DNA of 64,000 bases from Paracoccaceae bacterium. GTDB lineage: Bacteria > Pseudomonadota > Alphaproteobacteria > Rhodobacterales > Rhodobacteraceae. Location of the stretch: the NCBI GenBank assembly GCA_947476475.1, contig CANJQT010000007.1, positions 1 to 64,000 on the forward strand, given 5' to 3'. The notes under the pieces were generated by a model, which did no database searches, was not told where the DNA came from, and was given only the letters and a program-made list of their open reading frames with translations. This document shows positions 50,083-55,274 of the stretch, in pieces; the stretch's first letter is position 1, and each line of letters starts with the position of its first letter. Both the position numbers and the translations under genes were made by a program.

Positions 50083-51132
50083 ATGACCAATGAGTTCCGC
50101 GCCTTGCCCCACGCCCCGGCGGATCACCCGGCGGTCAGGCAACCGAAAATCGGCATCCTGTTCGCCAATCTTGGCACGCCGGACGGCTACAGTTATTGGC
50201 CGATGCGCCGCTATCTGTCGGAATTCCTGTCGGACAAGCGGGTGATCGACTACCCCGCCTGGAAATGGCAGCCGATCCTGCAACTGATCATCCTGACCAA
50301 GCGCCCCAAGGCCAAGGGCCGCGATTACCAGTCGATCTGGAACCATGAGCGCAACGAAAGCCCGATGCTGACGATCACCCGCCAGCAGACCGAAAAGCTG
50401 CGTGCGGCGGCGGTGGCCGAATGGGGCGACCGGGTCATGGTTGATTTCTGCATGCGCTACGGCAATCCCTCGACCGAAAGCGTGGTGCAAAAGATGGTGG
50501 CCGAGGGGTGCGAAAAGATCCTGTTCTTCCCGCTTTACCCCCAATATGCGGGTGCCACCGTTGCCACCGCCAACGACCAGTTCTTCCGCGCCCTGATGAA
50601 GGAAAAGCGCCAGCCCGCTGCGCGCACCGTAGCCGAATATTTCGATCATCCGCTTTACATCGATGCGCTGGCGGGTTCGGTGACGCGTGCCTATGCGGCA
50701 CTGGATCACCGGCCAGATGTTCTGGTCGCGTCTTACCACGGCATGCCAAAACGCTATCTGATGGAAGGCGACCCCTACCATTGCCAGTGCCAGAAAACCA
50801 CGCGCCTGCTGCGCGAACGGTTGGGCTGGGACAAGGCCGCAATCGACACCACCTTCCAGTCGGTCTTTGGCCCGGAAGAATGGCTAAAGCCCTATACGGT
50901 GAAACATGTGGCCGAACTGGCCCGCGCCGGAAAGAAGAAGATCGCGGTGATTTCTCCGGCCTTTGCCGCCGACTGTATCGAGACGCTGGAAGAAATTCAG
51001 GGCGAGATCCGCGAGGAGTTCATGCATGCCGGGGGCGAAAGCTTCACCTATATTCCGTGCCTGAATGACGAAGACGCCCATATCGCCGCCCTGACCGCGG
51101 TTGTGCGGCAGAATCTGGCGGGCTGGGTCTGA
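50083..51132 (+). CDS. hemH: Ferrochelatase HemH
   Basis: HemH inserts ferrous iron into protoporphyrin IX, the last step of protoheme synthesis. The 349-residue protein shows KIGILFANLGTPDGYSYW at the start, SYHGMPKRYLMEGDPY with the catalytic histidine near residue 220, and AFAADCIETLEEIQGE with the conserved Glu near residue 305. Length is typical of alphaproteobacterial ferrochelatase. A strong terminator follows 25 bases after the stop. Confidence 0.97.
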   Translation: MTNEFRALPHAPADHPAVRQPKIGILFANLGTPDGYSYWPMRRYLSEFLSDKRVIDYPAWKWQPILQLIILTKRPKAKGRDYQSIWNHERNESPMLTITRQQTEKLRAAAVAEWGDRVMVDFCMRYGNPSTESVVQKMVAEGCEKILFFPLYPQYAGATVATANDQFFRALMKEKRQPAARTVAEYFDHPLYIDALAGSVTRAYAALDHRPDVLVASYHGMPKRYLMEGDPYHCQCQKTTRLLRERLGWDKAAIDTTFQSVFGPEEWLKPYTVKHVAELARAGKKKIAVISPAFAADCIETLEEIQGEIREEFMHAGGESFTYIPCLNDEDAHIAALTAVVRQNLAGWV

Positions 51133-51156
51133 CAGCTGGTCAGGCGCAGACAAAGA

Positions 51157-51184
51157 AAAAGGCGACGGAAAACCGTCGCCTTTT
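51157..51184. terminator. Bidirectional terminator between hemH and the 59-residue peptide gene
   Basis: AAAAGGCGACGG pairs with CCGTCGCCTTTT (51157-51168 with 51173-51184, AAAA loop), a perfect 12-base-pair stem with an A-run on one side and a T-run on the other. It ends hemH and the convergent small gene. Confidence 0.92.
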
Positions 51185-51205
51185 CTTCTGATTGCTCAGA
51201 AAATA

Positions 51206-51385
51206 TTAGTTGCTGGCAGCGGCCGCAACGAGCAGCAGAACCAGCAGCGGAACGACGATGCCGCCAGCCGACGACGAAGCCTTCGCTTCAACAACTTCCG
51301 GCTCGGTCACAGCTTCGCCCACGCCGCCAGCGAAAGCGGTGGTTGCGGAAAGCGTCAGAGCGGTAGCAAGCGCGATTTTCTTCAT
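51206..51385 (-). CDS. Small exported/membrane peptide, paralogue 1 (59 residues)
   Basis: The gene encodes a signal peptide (MKKIALATALTLSATTAFAG), a short acidic linker (EPEVVEAKASSSAGG) and a C-terminal hydrophobic segment (IVVPLLVLLLVAAAASN). This looks like a small periplasmic-face membrane peptide. I do not know its function. A second copy with almost the same sequence lies at 51745-51924. GGAG stands 9 bases before the ATG, in a leader shared with the second copy. The terminator at 51157-51184 follows. Confidence 0.72.
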   Translation of the reverse strand: MKKIALATALTLSATTAFAGGVGEAVTEPEVVEAKASSSAGGIVVPLLVLLLVAAAASN

Positions 51386-51744
51386 TTGTATGTCTCCATC
51401 CGCGCCCCAGCAAATGAATCAAGTGAGGATAACTGGGGCAAATTATCGTTACCTCGTGCTGTCGAGTAGCCCGAAGGGTGGGATATATGCAACAGCCCTT
51501 GTGCATCAAAAGCAAAGGTTTCGGGTATTTCGTCAAATAAGCAACACTTCGGCGCATGCCGGATGAGACTGGCGCGCGCTGTCTGGTCGCAATCAGAATT
51601 CTTGTGGCAAACCAAAAATATCCCGACAAAAGGCCGGGCTAACCGTTCAACATCGGCCGTTGGCAGCGGCACGGCGGCTTGGGGTGCATCGGGGTCAAAG
51701 CAGGCCCCGATGCGGTATTTAGCAGGCCCTTGGGCCAGTGTCGC
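51386..51744. other. Spacer between the two 59-residue peptide genes (359 bases)
   Basis: I see no gene in this stretch. Next to the first gene it holds the leader with the same TGTATGTCTCCATCCGCGCC sequence that precedes the second copy. At 51686-51713 GCATCGGGG pairs with CCCCGATGC (10-base loop), a hairpin just downstream of the second copy that may end its transcript. The remainder is unremarkable and less GC-rich than the coding parts. Confidence 0.6.
51686..51713 (-). terminator. Hairpin downstream of the second 59-residue peptide gene
   Basis: A 9-base-pair stem (51686-51694 with 51705-51713) lies 31 bases beyond the stop on the minus strand. It lacks a strong T-run, so it may be a weak or factor-aided terminator or a 3'-end stabiliser. 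Confidence 0.4.
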
Positions 51745-51924
51745 TTAGTTGCTGGCAGCAGCCGCAACCAGCAGCAGAACCAGCAGCGGAACGACGATGC
51801 CGCCAGCCGACGACGACGCTTCAGTGGCGACCGGTTCCGGTTCCATGACCGGTTCAGCAATGCCGCCGGCGAAAGCCGAGGTGGCAGCGAGCGTCAGTGC
51901 AGTTGCAAGCGCAAACTTCTTCAT
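51745..51924 (-). CDS. Small exported/membrane peptide, paralogue 2 (59 residues)
   Basis: The product is MKKFALATALTLAATSAFAG, an acidic linker (EPVMEPEPVATEASSSAGG) and the same hydrophobic tail as paralogue 1 (IVVPLLVLLLVAAAASN). Signal peptide and tail are nearly identical between copies while the linker has drifted, which suggests that the two ends are constrained. I use the ATG at 51924; the longer frame to 51954 crosses the ribosome-binding site GGAG. The two genes point the same way. Confidence 0.72.
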   Translation of the reverse strand: MKKFALATALTLAATSAFAGGIAEPVMEPEPVATEASSSAGGIVVPLLVLLLVAAAASN

Positions 51925-52064
51925 CTGTATGTCTCCATCCGCGCCCCGTTTCAAAATGAATGGGATGGCCGGGGCTGCCTCCGTCCCTTAGCATACAAGG
52001 TGCGGTGGACTGGCATTTTTTTCCAGCATTTTTTTCGCCCACCGCAACCGCAGGCACCAGTCTG

Positions 52065-52682
52065 TCAAATCAGCAACACCTGGGTCCCGACCTTGGCCAT
52101 TTCGAACAGTTCGGTGATATGTTCATTATAAAGGCCCACGCAGCCGTTCGACGACCGCCGCCCGATCTTGCGGGTATCATGGGTGCCGTGGATGCGATAG
52201 AACTGCCAGCCCAGGTAAAGCGCGCGCACCCCAAGCGGGTTTGCCGGGTCGCCGCCGGGAATGAACTCGGGCCATTCGGGATAGCGTGCGCGCATCGCTG
52301 GCGTCGGGCGCCATGGCGGATTCACCACCTTGTCCACCACTTCAGTGCGCCCGCGGCGAACCAGATCTTCGGTCAGCGCGACAGAGCAGGGATAAAGCCG
52401 GTAGGTCACCTGATCTTCGTTCCAGTAATGCAGCGCGCGCGAGGTGATATCCACCAGGATGGCACCCTTCCGGAGGTCGGGGAAATAGGGCTGCCATTCC
52501 AGCGAACGGAAGCTGGACATGTTGCGGCGCAGATTGTGGCTGAGGTCGTTTTCGACCTCGGTGCTGTTGGCATCCATCGTGGACTGGGCGAAAGCCGGGG
52601 CGGCAAGGGCCGCTGTGGCGAAAGCTGCGGCACCGCCCAGAAGGGACCGGCGGCTTACTTTGCGCGCGTCTTGTGAACTCAT
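52065..52682 (-). CDS. L,D-transpeptidase (YkuD family) with Tat-type signal
   Basis: The 205-residue protein starts MSSQDARKVSRRSLLGGAAA, a twin-arginine-like signal (SRRSLLGG) followed by a hydrophobic stretch and AFA cleavage site, so it is probably exported folded by the Tat pathway. The YkuD domain has the catalytic motif IHGTHDTRKIGRRSSNGCVG with Cys near residue 182 and a His in HGT. L,D-transpeptidases make 3-3 cross-links or attach proteins to peptidoglycan. The start at 52682 is preferred to the frame at 52748. It is divergent from the CAP-domain lipoprotein gene. Confidence 0.92.
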   Translation of the reverse strand: MSSQDARKVSRRSLLGGAAAFATAALAAPAFAQSTMDANSTEVENDLSHNLRRNMSSFRSLEWQPYFPDLRKGAILVDITSRALHYWNEDQVTYRLYPCSVALTEDLVRRGRTEVVDKVVNPPWRPTPAMRARYPEWPEFIPGGDPANPLGVRALYLGWQFYRIHGTHDTRKIGRRSSNGCVGLYNEHITELFEMAKVGTQVLLI

Positions 52683-52881
52683 TGCCTCATGACTCCGTTT
52701 TGCGGTTAGGGTCCGCACCAGGTCTGATCGCCTGCTTGAAGGACCCATCCTATCTGCTGTCGGGGCGCGCGCGCATGCAAATCAAACCTGCGCGACCTTC
52801 CGCGGCCCGATAATTTGGCGTTTGAACACTGTTTGACGAAACTGTAAAGCACAGCGTGATGAAAATGAGGGCTTCTTGCCG

Positions 52882-53391
52882 ATGATGAAATTTGCCGGAG
52901 CGGTCCTGGCCACCGCACTTCTTCTTTCCGCCTGCGTCACGGCGCCGCCGCAACTTGGCCCGGACGGCAAACCGCTGCCCGAAGCCTATATCATCGGGCC
53001 GGGCGATGTCAGCCGCGTGACCTATTCGATGGTGGATTCGATCAATGCGCTGCGGACGGCCAAGGGGCTTGTGCCCTTGCAACTGGATGCGCAACTGACC
53101 GCCGCCGCCGCCACCCATTCGCGCGATATGGCCGTGCAGAACCGCCCCTGGCATTTTGGGTCCGACGGTTCTTCGCCGCTTCTGCGGGTGCAGCGCACCG
53201 GCTATGCCGGCAAGATGATGGGCGAGAATATTTCGGAAACCTACGAGAACGAGCTTGAAACCCTGACCGCCTGGATGTCGGTCCCCGATACCCGCGCCGT
53301 GGTTCTGGACCCCAAAGCGGTGAGCATGGGCTTTTCCTGGTATCAGGAACCTTCGGGCAAGATCTGGTGGACGCTGGTCACTGGAAGCTGA
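52882..53391 (+). CDS. CAP (SCP/PR-1) domain lipoprotein
   Basis: The 169-residue protein has a lipoprotein signal (MMKFAGAVLATALLLSACVT, lipobox LSAC). A CAP domain follows: INALRTAKGLVPLQLDAQLT, AAATHSRDMAVQNRPWHFG with the conserved histidine, and MGENISETYENELETLTAWM. CAP proteins of bacteria are envelope-associated and mostly uncharacterised. The gene lies between two L,D-transpeptidase genes, and a terminator follows its stop. Confidence 0.88.
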   Translation: MMKFAGAVLATALLLSACVTAPPQLGPDGKPLPEAYIIGPGDVSRVTYSMVDSINALRTAKGLVPLQLDAQLTAAAATHSRDMAVQNRPWHFGSDGSSPLLRVQRTGYAGKMMGENISETYENELETLTAWMSVPDTRAVVLDPKAVSMGFSWYQEPSGKIWWTLVTGS

Positions 53392-53464: not shown

Positions 53465-53959
53465 TCATGGCTTGATGAAGATCGGCGTGCCGACCTTGAC
53501 CATCGAATAGACTTCCTCGATCTCGCTGTTGGTCACGGCGATGCAGCCGGCGGTCCAGTCGGTGCCCTTGGCCTTCTTGCGCGGGGCCTGTCCGTGAACG
53601 AAGATGTCGCCCCCCGGCTGTTTGCCCAGCGCCTTTGCGTCGGCGCGGTCCTTTTCGTTAGGATAGGAAATACCCAGCGACAGGTAAAAGGCGCTTCGCG
53701 GGTTACGACGGTTGATGAAATAGGTGCCTTCCGGCGTCTTGCCGTCGCCCTCGATCTGCTTGTCGCCCACCGGATTGCCGCCAAGCGCGATCTGATAGTT
53801 TTCAAGCACCTCATTGCCGTGCAGCAGATACATCTGCCGGTCGGCCTTGTGGACGACGATAGCCGTCACTTCCGGCCCGTCATATGTCCGGAATTTCGAC
53901 TCGCCGCAGGCCGCCAGCACCAGTGGGGCACCCAAAAGCAAGATACCAAGATATTTCAT
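53465..53959 (-). CDS. L,D-transpeptidase family lipoprotein
   Basis: The 164-residue protein starts with a lipoprotein signal (MKYLGILLLGAPLVLAACGE, lipobox LAAC). A YkuD domain follows with YLLHGNEVLENYQIALGG, IFVHGQAPRKKAKGTDW and the catalytic cysteine in DWTAGCIAVTNSEIEEVY. It shares the fold but little sequence with the first L,D-transpeptidase at 52065, so the two are not a recent duplication. I use the ATG at 53959; the upstream frame overlaps the rRNA methyltransferase region. Confidence 0.92.
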   Translation of the reverse strand: MKYLGILLLGAPLVLAACGESKFRTYDGPEVTAIVVHKADRQMYLLHGNEVLENYQIALGGNPVGDKQIEGDGKTPEGTYFINRRNPRSAFYLSLGISYPNEKDRADAKALGKQPGGDIFVHGQAPRKKAKGTDWTAGCIAVTNSEIEEVYSMVKVGTPIFIKP

Positions 53960-54044
53960 GATCGGCCCGTCTGCCCCTTTTTCTTCGCCTCTTACACCCC
54001 GGGCCTGACCAGCGGAAGTGGGCCTTTCACAGCTTTTCGTGATG

Positions 54045-55274
54045 CTAGCCGCGCGACAGCCGCGCCGCCAATTCAACATGTGGCGACCAGCGGAACTGGT
54101 CAACCACCTGCACCCAGTCCAGCCGGAACCCGGCGGCCGTCAATATCCGCGCATCGCGGGCGAATGTCACCGGATTGCACGACACATAGGCGATGACCTT
54201 CACTTTCGATTGCGCAAGCTCGCGCACCTGCGCTTCGGCCCCGGCGCGCGGCGGATCCAGCACCACCGCGTCATGGCGGTTCAATTCGTCAGGCAGCAAG
54301 GGGCGGCGGAACAGATCGCGGGTTTCGGTCGTGACCCGGTGCAGGCCTTGCGCCTTGCGAAAGCCTGCTTCAAGCGCGACTAGCATCGGCTTTTCCGATT
54401 CCGCCGCATGGACCTCGGCCTGTTCGGCCAAAGGCAGGCTGAAGGTGCCCGCCCCGGAAAACAGATCGGCAATGCGCCGCGCCTTGCCCACCGTTTCGCG
54501 CACGGCGGCCAGCAGTGCGGCCTCGCCGGCCTTCGTCGCTTGCAAGAACGCCCCGGCCGGCGGCGCGACCAGCGCCTTGCCGAACCTCTGCAGGGGCGGG
54601 CGACGGGTGGCGACCGGCTCGCCCTCCCAGGTGATGCGCGCCAGATCGGCACTTTCGGCCAGCGCCGCCAACTTCTGGAACAACTCGGCGTCCATCGGCT
54701 TGCCGCCCATGACCGCCAGATCAACGCCGCTTTCGCTTTCGGTGACGGTCAGCGCCAGTTCGCCCTTGCGGGAATTCCCGGCCTCGGTCACCGCATGCAG
54801 GGTGGGCAGCGCCGCCAGCAGTTGCGGCGCCAGCAATGCGCAATCCTTCAGATCGACCAATGTGCCCGAAGCACGGCCATGAAATCCGACGATCGTGCCC
54901 TTCTTTGTCCGTCGCCCAGAAAGCGTCGCCCGCCGCCGCGACCGTCCGGGCGAGGTTTGAATGGCGCGCATCGGCGCCTCAAGCCCCTGTGCGGCCAGCG
55001 CCGAGGCCACGACCTGAACTTTCCAGCCCGCGACAAACGCATCGGTCGCATGCTGCAGCGCGCAGCCTCCGCAGGCGGCATAGTGCGGGCAGGGCGCGCG
55101 GCGGCGGTCTGGCGATGGGGTGACGACCTTGGGCGCGTCCATCCGGCCCGCCACAACCTCGCCTTCGACCACTTCGCCCGGCAGGGCGCGCGGCACGAAC
55201 ACCGGTCCGCCCATCACATCATCCGCGCCGATCCCGTCGCCATGATGGCCCAGCCGTTCGATTGTCAGCCTCAC
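54045..55274 (-). CDS. Class I SAM-dependent RNA methyltransferase (RlmD/TrmA family)
   Basis: The 409-residue protein belongs to the RNA m5U methyltransferase family. It has an N-terminal TRAM-like part (RLTIERLGHHGDGIGADDVM), a cysteine cluster CPHYAACGGCALQHA that would hold an iron-sulfur centre, the SAM-binding IADLFSGAGTFSLPLAEQ and the catalytic region AVVLDPPRAGAEAQ with AYVSCNPVTFARD containing the nucleophile cysteine. The target could be 23S rRNA m5U1939 or tRNA. It starts with a GTG and overlaps the end of the ABC exporter gene. Confidence 0.92.
   Translation of the reverse strand: MRLTIERLGHHGDGIGADDVMGGPVFVPRALPGEVVEGEVVAGRMDAPKVVTPSPDRRRAPCPHYAACGGCALQHATDAFVAGWKVQVVASALAAQGLEAPMRAIQTSPGRSRRRATLSGRRTKKGTIVGFHGRASGTLVDLKDCALLAPQLLAALPTLHAVTEAGNSRKGELALTVTESESGVDLAVMGGKPMDAELFQKLAALAESADLARITWEGEPVATRRPPLQRFGKALVAPPAGAFLQATKAGEAALLAAVRETVGKARRIADLFSGAGTFSLPLAEQAEVHAAESEKPMLVALEAGFRKAQGLHRVTTETRDLFRRPLLPDELNRHDAVVLDPPRAGAEAQVRELAQSKVKVIAYVSCNPVTFARDARILTAAGFRLDWVQVVDQFRWSPHVELAARLSRG

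Follow-up and report, generated by a model that had tools for sequence, protein, structure and literature searches.

Introduction

It is established that L,D-transpeptidases (LDTs) of Coxiella, Legionella, Brucella and Agrobacterium tether envelope proteins by an N-terminal Gly or Ala. Published LDT-tethered N-termini are GGPDYVPAPSY in BbpA, GGIEVPH in Cbu1814 and GTVGEAQQDGK in Lpg2942 (PMC11841132). Outer membrane (OM) barrels are linked by N-terminal Ala or Gly, and OutB, an inner membrane (IM) protein, is also LDT-tethered (PMC12274547).

A module with an LDT is known in R. sphaeroides. DalA (RSP_1200) is an OM divisome lipoprotein that co-precipitates the LDT RSP_1199, and mutants in RSP_1199 and DalA have phenotypes in common (PMC10470522). 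RSP_1200 is annotated with SCP/PR1 domains (PMC9275681), and the R. sphaeroides hemH gene is RSP_1197 (PMC3413700). The DalA authors leave open covalent links between OM and peptidoglycan like those of Brucella in this lineage. The SAM/SAH riboswitch RF01727 is a Rhodobacterales-specific leader RNA (PMC2864571).

Here we describe two small genes of a Paracoccaceae bacterium that lie at the corresponding locus. They were found in a 64,000-nucleotide stretch of contig CANJQT010000007.1, referred to below as the window.

Results

Twin peptide genes next to an LDT gene

Copy A lies on the minus strand at 51206-51385 (51209-51385 without the stop codon) and copy B, on the same strand, at 51745-51924 (51748-51924 without the stop codon). 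Each encodes 59 amino acids. The copy A protein consists of the signal peptide MKKIALATALTLSATTAFA and the mature sequence GGVGEAVTEPEVVEAKASSSAGGIVVPLLVLLLVAAAASN, and the copy B protein of MKKFALATALTLAATSAFA and GGIAEPVMEPEPVATEASSSAGGIVVPLLVLLLVAAAASN, respectively. The two proteins are 81% identical. Their coding DNA is identical at 144/180 positions, very unevenly spread, with 47/60 in the signal peptide codons, 27/48 in the linker and 70/72 in the tail and stop codon. Immediately ahead of the ATG, the leaders agree at 21/22 bases, or at 22/24 when two further bases are counted. This likeness is far beyond chance. The preliminary description of twin 59-residue open reading frames with a common signal peptide, hydrophobic tail and ribosome-binding leader is borne out by the segment identities and by the 21/22 leader bases.

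Downstream of copy A and convergent with the peptide genes is the ferrochelatase gene hemH (50083..51132, plus strand, E 5.3e-107; RSP_1197 in R. sphaeroides). The gap between hemH and copy A contains a bidirectional terminator-like hairpin recognized by pattern match (51156..51185), and the spacer between the two copies has a terminator-like site, a weak pattern match (51622..51638, minus strand). Directly upstream of copy B is LDT1, a YkuD L,D-transpeptidase (52065..52748, minus strand, E 7.7e-22) and the counterpart of RSP_1199 by synteny. Next are a CAP-domain lipoprotein gene (52876..53391, plus strand, E 5.8e-19), whose position and domain suggest that it is the DalA (RSP_1200) counterpart, and LDT2, a second YkuD L,D-transpeptidase (53465..54103, minus strand, E 1.6e-22) that corresponds to RSP_1201 by synteny. 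The next genes had been described as transpeptidases, which holds for LDT1; LDT2 is set behind the lipoprotein gene. From tag order, RSP_1198 would be the peptide gene in R. sphaeroides. It is mentioned neither in the DalA paper (PMC10470522) nor elsewhere in the literature searched. The signal of LDT1 (at 52680-52748) and of LDTs in related loci is twin-arginine-like (SRRSLLGG...), which suggests that the enzyme may be exported by a different route from the peptide.

The order LDT, peptide gene, hemH is the same in other genera. An LDT gene is upstream and co-directional in 108/119 peptide loci, hemH is convergent downstream in 99/119, and 92/119 have both arrangements. A YkuD motif was detected upstream of the peptide gene in 106/118 loci, and about 10% of loci are missing an adjacent LDT. 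Since the LDT is still present in 16/20 loci without adjacent hemH, the peptide gene is tied to the LDT rather than to hemH. The median distance from the LDT stop codon to the peptide ATG is 148 nt, just enough room for a promoter and leader. Comparison of these loci shows a peptide gene that is, judging from gene order, genetically tied to LDT and DalA, with a putative dedicated structured leader in most genera.

A peptide family of the Rhodobacteraceae

The family was searched with a profile built from 15 members, including as rows both window copies, which match it at E 9.3e-30 and 9.5e-30. By profile and by their LDT/peptide/hemH locus, the window copies fit the family definition of a signal peptide, AxA↓G, an acidic linker, SSS and a helix, encoded behind an LDT gene. 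Of 298 genomes sampled from the window's family, 253 contain the peptide, as do 187/198 genomes of a sample drawn from the order, whose genomes all belong to the window's family. In a class sample 4/144 genomes match, 3 of them from the window's family; the one match from outside it, L167, looks like a chance open reading frame. On this evidence the peptide family is essentially absent from the rest of the class. Named carriers include Fuscibacter, Pseudorhodobacter, Pseudotabrizicola and an Amylibacter MAG, which places the peptide family in the Rhodobacteraceae. A coding frame limited to a single strain would have told against the preliminary description; the frame is clearly conserved further, in 4/4 congeners as well as in the 253/298 family genomes.

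Searches of the libraries returned little. The window peptides have no Pfam match at E≤1 and no NCBIfam match, 42 aligned family members gave only scattered sub-threshold matches to Pfam and NCBIfam, and the PDB holds no sequence match or fold match for the peptide. A mobile or phage origin was discarded, there being no plasmid or phage matches. The peptide family appears to be without a name, a domain model or a described RNA leader in the libraries searched.

Copy number is one or two in the bulk of genomes and reaches at most 13. Genomes with 7 to 13 copies have them mostly at other loci. The tandem pair is found in 4/4 congeneric genomes examined (five with the window's own). With a single copy in the majority of family genomes and a range of 1 to 13, the earlier proposal that the pair is a functional unit is not supported. 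Fuscibacter oryzae has six tandem copies between LDT and hemH (L006:2708-4198), of which the later ones end in short variable C-terminal tails (SSGGNDSIPQ and similar). Arrays of paralogues recur at conserved places other than hemH and away from any LDT gene, beside yjbH, lon and an SDR/patatin/Indigoidine_A-type group (L077, L201, L202; L204, L206, L211, L213; L200, L203, L207, L212).

The paralogues beside yjbH (PF06082) raise the question of whether the peptides are general membrane or surface polysaccharide peptides of the YjbE/GfcA type, concerned with exopolysaccharide export, with the LDT neighborhood incidental. E. coli YjbE and GfcA are likewise small secreted proteins with the same layout of signal peptide, linker, hydrophobic segment and polar tail. 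This explanation is nevertheless very unlikely. The YjbE model PF11106 scored over its cut-off in 0/7 genomes, and hhalign profile comparison aligned residues 1-20 only (probability 9.5 and 2.4), which leaves no detectable homology past the signal peptide. Furthermore, coordinates suggest that the yjbH-side paralogues are convergent with yjbH and not first in its operon.

In four genomes, five paralogues at loci away from hemH extend past the hydrophobic helix into a C-terminal Peptidase_S74 domain that bears the SDxRLK motif (L204:3029-3454, L206:3235 and 3684, L208:3428, L210:2893 (minus); one genome has two). Four of the five were searched in Pfam, one falling just under the curated cut-off, and the fifth was called from its sequence only. 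The domain is not present in the window copies. Peptidase_S74 is an intramolecular chaperone domain; in MYRF it forms homotrimers and is self-cleaving (PMC8326128, PMC6972908). By analogy, this rare variant hints that the peptides may oligomerize. A different small protein, encoded by a 150-codon open frame on the minus strand of L221, has a signal peptide, hydrophobic segment, Thr-rich tail and S74 domain; it is reminiscent of YjbE/GfcA plus an S74 domain.

Duplication and probable gene conversion

Ten genes from five genomes of the genus were compared. Tail identity is 0.90 within a genome versus 0.82 between orthologues, and leader identity is 0.65 within a genome versus 0.80 between orthologues. 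Upstream and leader DNA group by gene position and tails group by genome. Position-specific promoters together with homogenized tails fit an older duplication whose tails have been homogenized by gene conversion, plus constraint. Conservation of both ends had been taken to point to a functional pair; near-identical tails alone, however, are no proof of selection at both ends, and tails that are alike within a genome fit gene conversion plus constraint. Judged by sequence, copy A is the one with the putative family-type promoter and leader start, and copy B, which adjoins the LDT gene, is probably an inserted local duplicate. The window genes are a lineage-local duplication of what is predicted to be a small envelope protein found throughout the Rhodobacteraceae.

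There is close to an even prospect that the window pair is a redundant duplication without separate roles, its likeness at both ends due to shared descent and gene conversion only. The 70/72 identity of the tails and their greater identity within a genome than between orthologues (0.90 versus 0.82) are what this explanation predicts. On the other hand, the pair is kept in all five genus genomes with position-specific upstream DNA, and divergence between the copies amounts to dN 0.12 and dS 0.65, so the pair is neither very recent nor obviously decaying. Redundancy of the pair would not conflict with the best explanation for the whole family, given below.

Anatomy of the peptide

An AxA↓G signal peptidase site is found in 188/188 distinct peptides, 186 by regular expression and 2 by inspection. 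The mature +1 residue is Gly in every member and the +2 residue is G, N, S, A, T or Q. As a rough contrast, the +1 residue of the neighboring LDT's signal peptide is varied and mostly Q. In the mature peptide of about 41 residues, a strongly hydrophobic helix follows a stretch whose net negative charge averages 3.4. The AlphaFold model has helices at 2-17 and 40-57, an unstructured linker between them and no strand. In the family alignment the linker sequence is variable, and the helix and Ser-rich hinge are kept. The comparison shows a predicted exportable precursor composed of an AxA↓Gly site, acidic linker, Ser-rich hinge and C-terminal hydrophobic helix. We infer that the signal peptide is cleaved at AxA↓G, which would leave Gly as mature residue 1. 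A cleaved signal peptide and a C-terminal stop-transfer helix suggest an IM, N-out topology for the mature peptide. The window copies contain no Cys and end in ...AAAASN with no K or R after the helix. A PEP-CTERM/VPLPA-CTERM type sorting signal was rejected, as the window copies have no basic cluster after the helix and no NCBIfam match.

Median dN/dS is 0.23 over 587 pairs of 59-residue members, indicating that the peptide frames are under purifying selection. The suggestion that the peptides are real and linked to a cell wall transpeptidase is upheld by this ratio and by the LDT neighborhood. Codon usage differs between peptide genes (141 cases) and hemH, with Ala GCT at 39% vs 5% and Val GTT at 46% vs 13%. 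A codon adaptation index based on L2 is 0.67 for the peptide genes vs 0.58-0.64; since it is only modestly raised, codon bias does not establish high abundance. The ribosomal L2 model had one match in each of ten relatives and none in the window's own assembly (G000), probably reflecting a gap in this 192-contig draft.

Small single-helix membrane proteins commonly serve as subunit modulators. The peptide might therefore be a small regulatory subunit, unattached to peptidoglycan, that binds the LDT/DalA complex and places or damps the transpeptidase. The LDT linkage supports such a subunit as much as it supports a tethered substrate, and a linker that varies while helix and hinge are kept would suit it. 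A subunit leaves unexplained why Gly is at +1 in every member while +2 varies, and the expanded arrays are far from any LDT gene. We consider a purely regulatory subunit doubtful, if still a serious contender.

Putative promoter and leader RNA

The predicted 5' leader of copy A (51386..51457, minus strand) runs from the putative start ACGAGG (51457-51452) to the base before the ATG. A -35-like element, TTGCAT (51487..51492, minus strand), lies 35 nt upstream of ACGAGG; it agrees with the family consensus and was not picked up by a generic sigma-70 scan. On the same strand are a hairpin at 51404..51439, with arms GCCCCAG (51439-51433) and CTGGGGC (51410-51404), and the Shine-Dalgarno (SD) sequence GGAG at 51394..51397. 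The copy B leader, also on the minus strand, has a hairpin at 51943..51975, with arms GCCCCG (51975-51970) and CGGGGC (51948-51943), and GGAG at 51933..51936. Among 80 family members an invariant A is followed by CGAGG or a near form and almost always preceded by a pyrimidine, and in 69/80 this A is 35-36 nt after TTGC[AG]. This spacing suggests that transcription starts at the ACGAGG site.

In other genera the leader forms a hairpin just ahead of the ribosome site, with changes on both sides at 11/11 pairs in 24 leaders. Covariation in these 24 leaders is 0.692 versus 0.325 when shuffled; 0/500 shuffles were as high and slid registers reached at most 0.26. For 80 model-aligned leaders the values are 0.645 versus 0.210, in an alignment that leans towards the model. 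The window's genus and one other genus (L027) have a shorter hairpin in the same place, with 94.8% of cells paired and compensatory changes at two pairs among 11 distinct leaders. The family leader model R1 has one match per genome in 68/150 genomes and none elsewhere in the genome, and these matches are at the peptide gene wherever the two match lists were compared. With exactly one in each matching genome, the leader is not a regulon-wide element. The window leaders are not among the 80 R1 matches, and they fold no better than shuffled sequence. They keep the family layout of ACGAGG, hairpin and SD, with covariation within their own genus type only. By layout rather than model score, they are a diverged version of the putative family leader.

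A known riboswitch or Rfam leader was rejected, as no model, including RF01727, matched at gathering score or E≤1; weak Rfam matches in the window are nearly all at the hemH terminator. A universal pseudoknot between a CCUC loop and the GGAGG of the SD was also dismissed because only part of the family has the loop motif. RNAalifold predicts that a nearly invariant CUUGGG sequesters the SD; because these columns hardly vary, sequestration is beyond the reach of covariation. The leader RNA is a strongly covarying, single-gene element that is undescribed in the libraries searched.

Since the hairpin covaries very strongly and the 5' end is invariant, the main conserved element could be the RNA, with the peptide secondary and either the structured leader or a small RNA processed from the leader acting in trans. 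This is highly improbable. The frame itself is under purifying selection (dN/dS 0.23), and the protein, though not the leader, is retained in tandem and distant paralogues, as in G126 with seven copies and one leader match.

Discussion

We tentatively favor, at somewhat less than an even chance, an IM, periplasm-facing small protein that works with the LDT and DalA, either as a substrate tethered via Gly or as a small subunit. After export, signal peptidase I would cleave the precursor at AxA↓Gly and give a mature peptide of about 40 residues. The C-terminal helix would hold it in the IM, with the N-terminal Gly and acidic stretch in the periplasm facing peptidoglycan. The peptide may then be an LDT substrate, its Gly joined to meso-diaminopimelate, making it an IM counterpart of Braun's lipoprotein. 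Alternatively, it may be a small subunit that places or tunes the LDT. The probable role of the leader hairpin, ahead of the ribosome site, is control of mRNA stability or translation for the peptide gene alone. The two window copies may yield more product or slightly different linkers, with gene conversion keeping the tails alike. An envelope stress role had been suggested, and no result obtained points specifically that way.

Within the favored LDT/DalA role, covalent tethering would be the boldest form and the non-covalent subunit its main rival. The fullest version, in which a dedicated LDT of the DalA divisome module staples the peptide to peptidoglycan via the N-terminal Gly, leader and copy number set the dose, and the S74 fusions of some lineages point to trimers, is unlikely. 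If true, it would make the peptide a mirror image of Braun's lipoprotein. The published analysis of R. sphaeroides peptidoglycan reported only a Tri-Lys-Arg remnant, which family peptides cannot supply and which counts against tethering. The LDT/DalA role in general is weakened by the paralogue arrays, which sit next to lon, yjbH and other genes at a distance from any LDT, and by the roughly 10% of loci where no LDT adjoins.

The Rhodobacteraceae include model phototrophs and abundant marine bacteria. The peptide is present in about 85-95% of sampled genomes, at the locus of a characterized divisome lipoprotein and its LDT. This opens to testing an envelope component that had been overlooked across an entire bacterial family. 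As an LDT substrate, it would add an IM tether to the envelope architecture.

How the locus compares with known systems differs by component. Like the SAM/SAH riboswitch RF01727, the peptide leader is a short hairpin confined to the same order (PMC2864571); unlike it, the leader has no Rfam match and precedes one gene, which is not metK. The DalA/RSP_1199 module of R. sphaeroides is the same locus, with hemH RSP_1197, LDT RSP_1199, DalA RSP_1200 and LDT RSP_1201, although the DalA paper's account omits the peptide gene that lies between hemH and the LDT. The peptide resembles Braun's lipoprotein Lpp as a very small envelope protein that could join membrane to peptidoglycan. However, it has a C-terminal anchor, probably in the IM, and the window copies lack the lipobox Cys and C-terminal Lys that define Lpp, so that membership was rejected.

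With LDT-tethered envelope proteins, namely Coxiella BbpA/BbpB, Legionella MOMPs, Brucella OMPs and Dickeya OutB, the peptide shares a mature Gly after AxA followed by acidic and proline-rich residues (PMC11841132, PMC12274547, PMC10787603). Among these, the Brucella OMPs have an Ala-Asp motif and OutB is linked at a C-terminal Lpp box. The known N-terminally linked proteins are OM beta-barrels, whereas the peptide has 59 residues, two predicted helices and no barrel, a difference that weighs against tethering. The predicted mature residue 1, which in N-terminal substrates is Gly or Ala, is Gly in 188/188 peptides, and an LDT gene adjoins. The mature starts GGMAEPVMEP and GNLAEPVVEAP resemble the published tethered N-termini, and OutB provides an IM precedent. 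These two likenesses are why, among the explanations considered, the LDT/DalA-coupled role is rated most likely.
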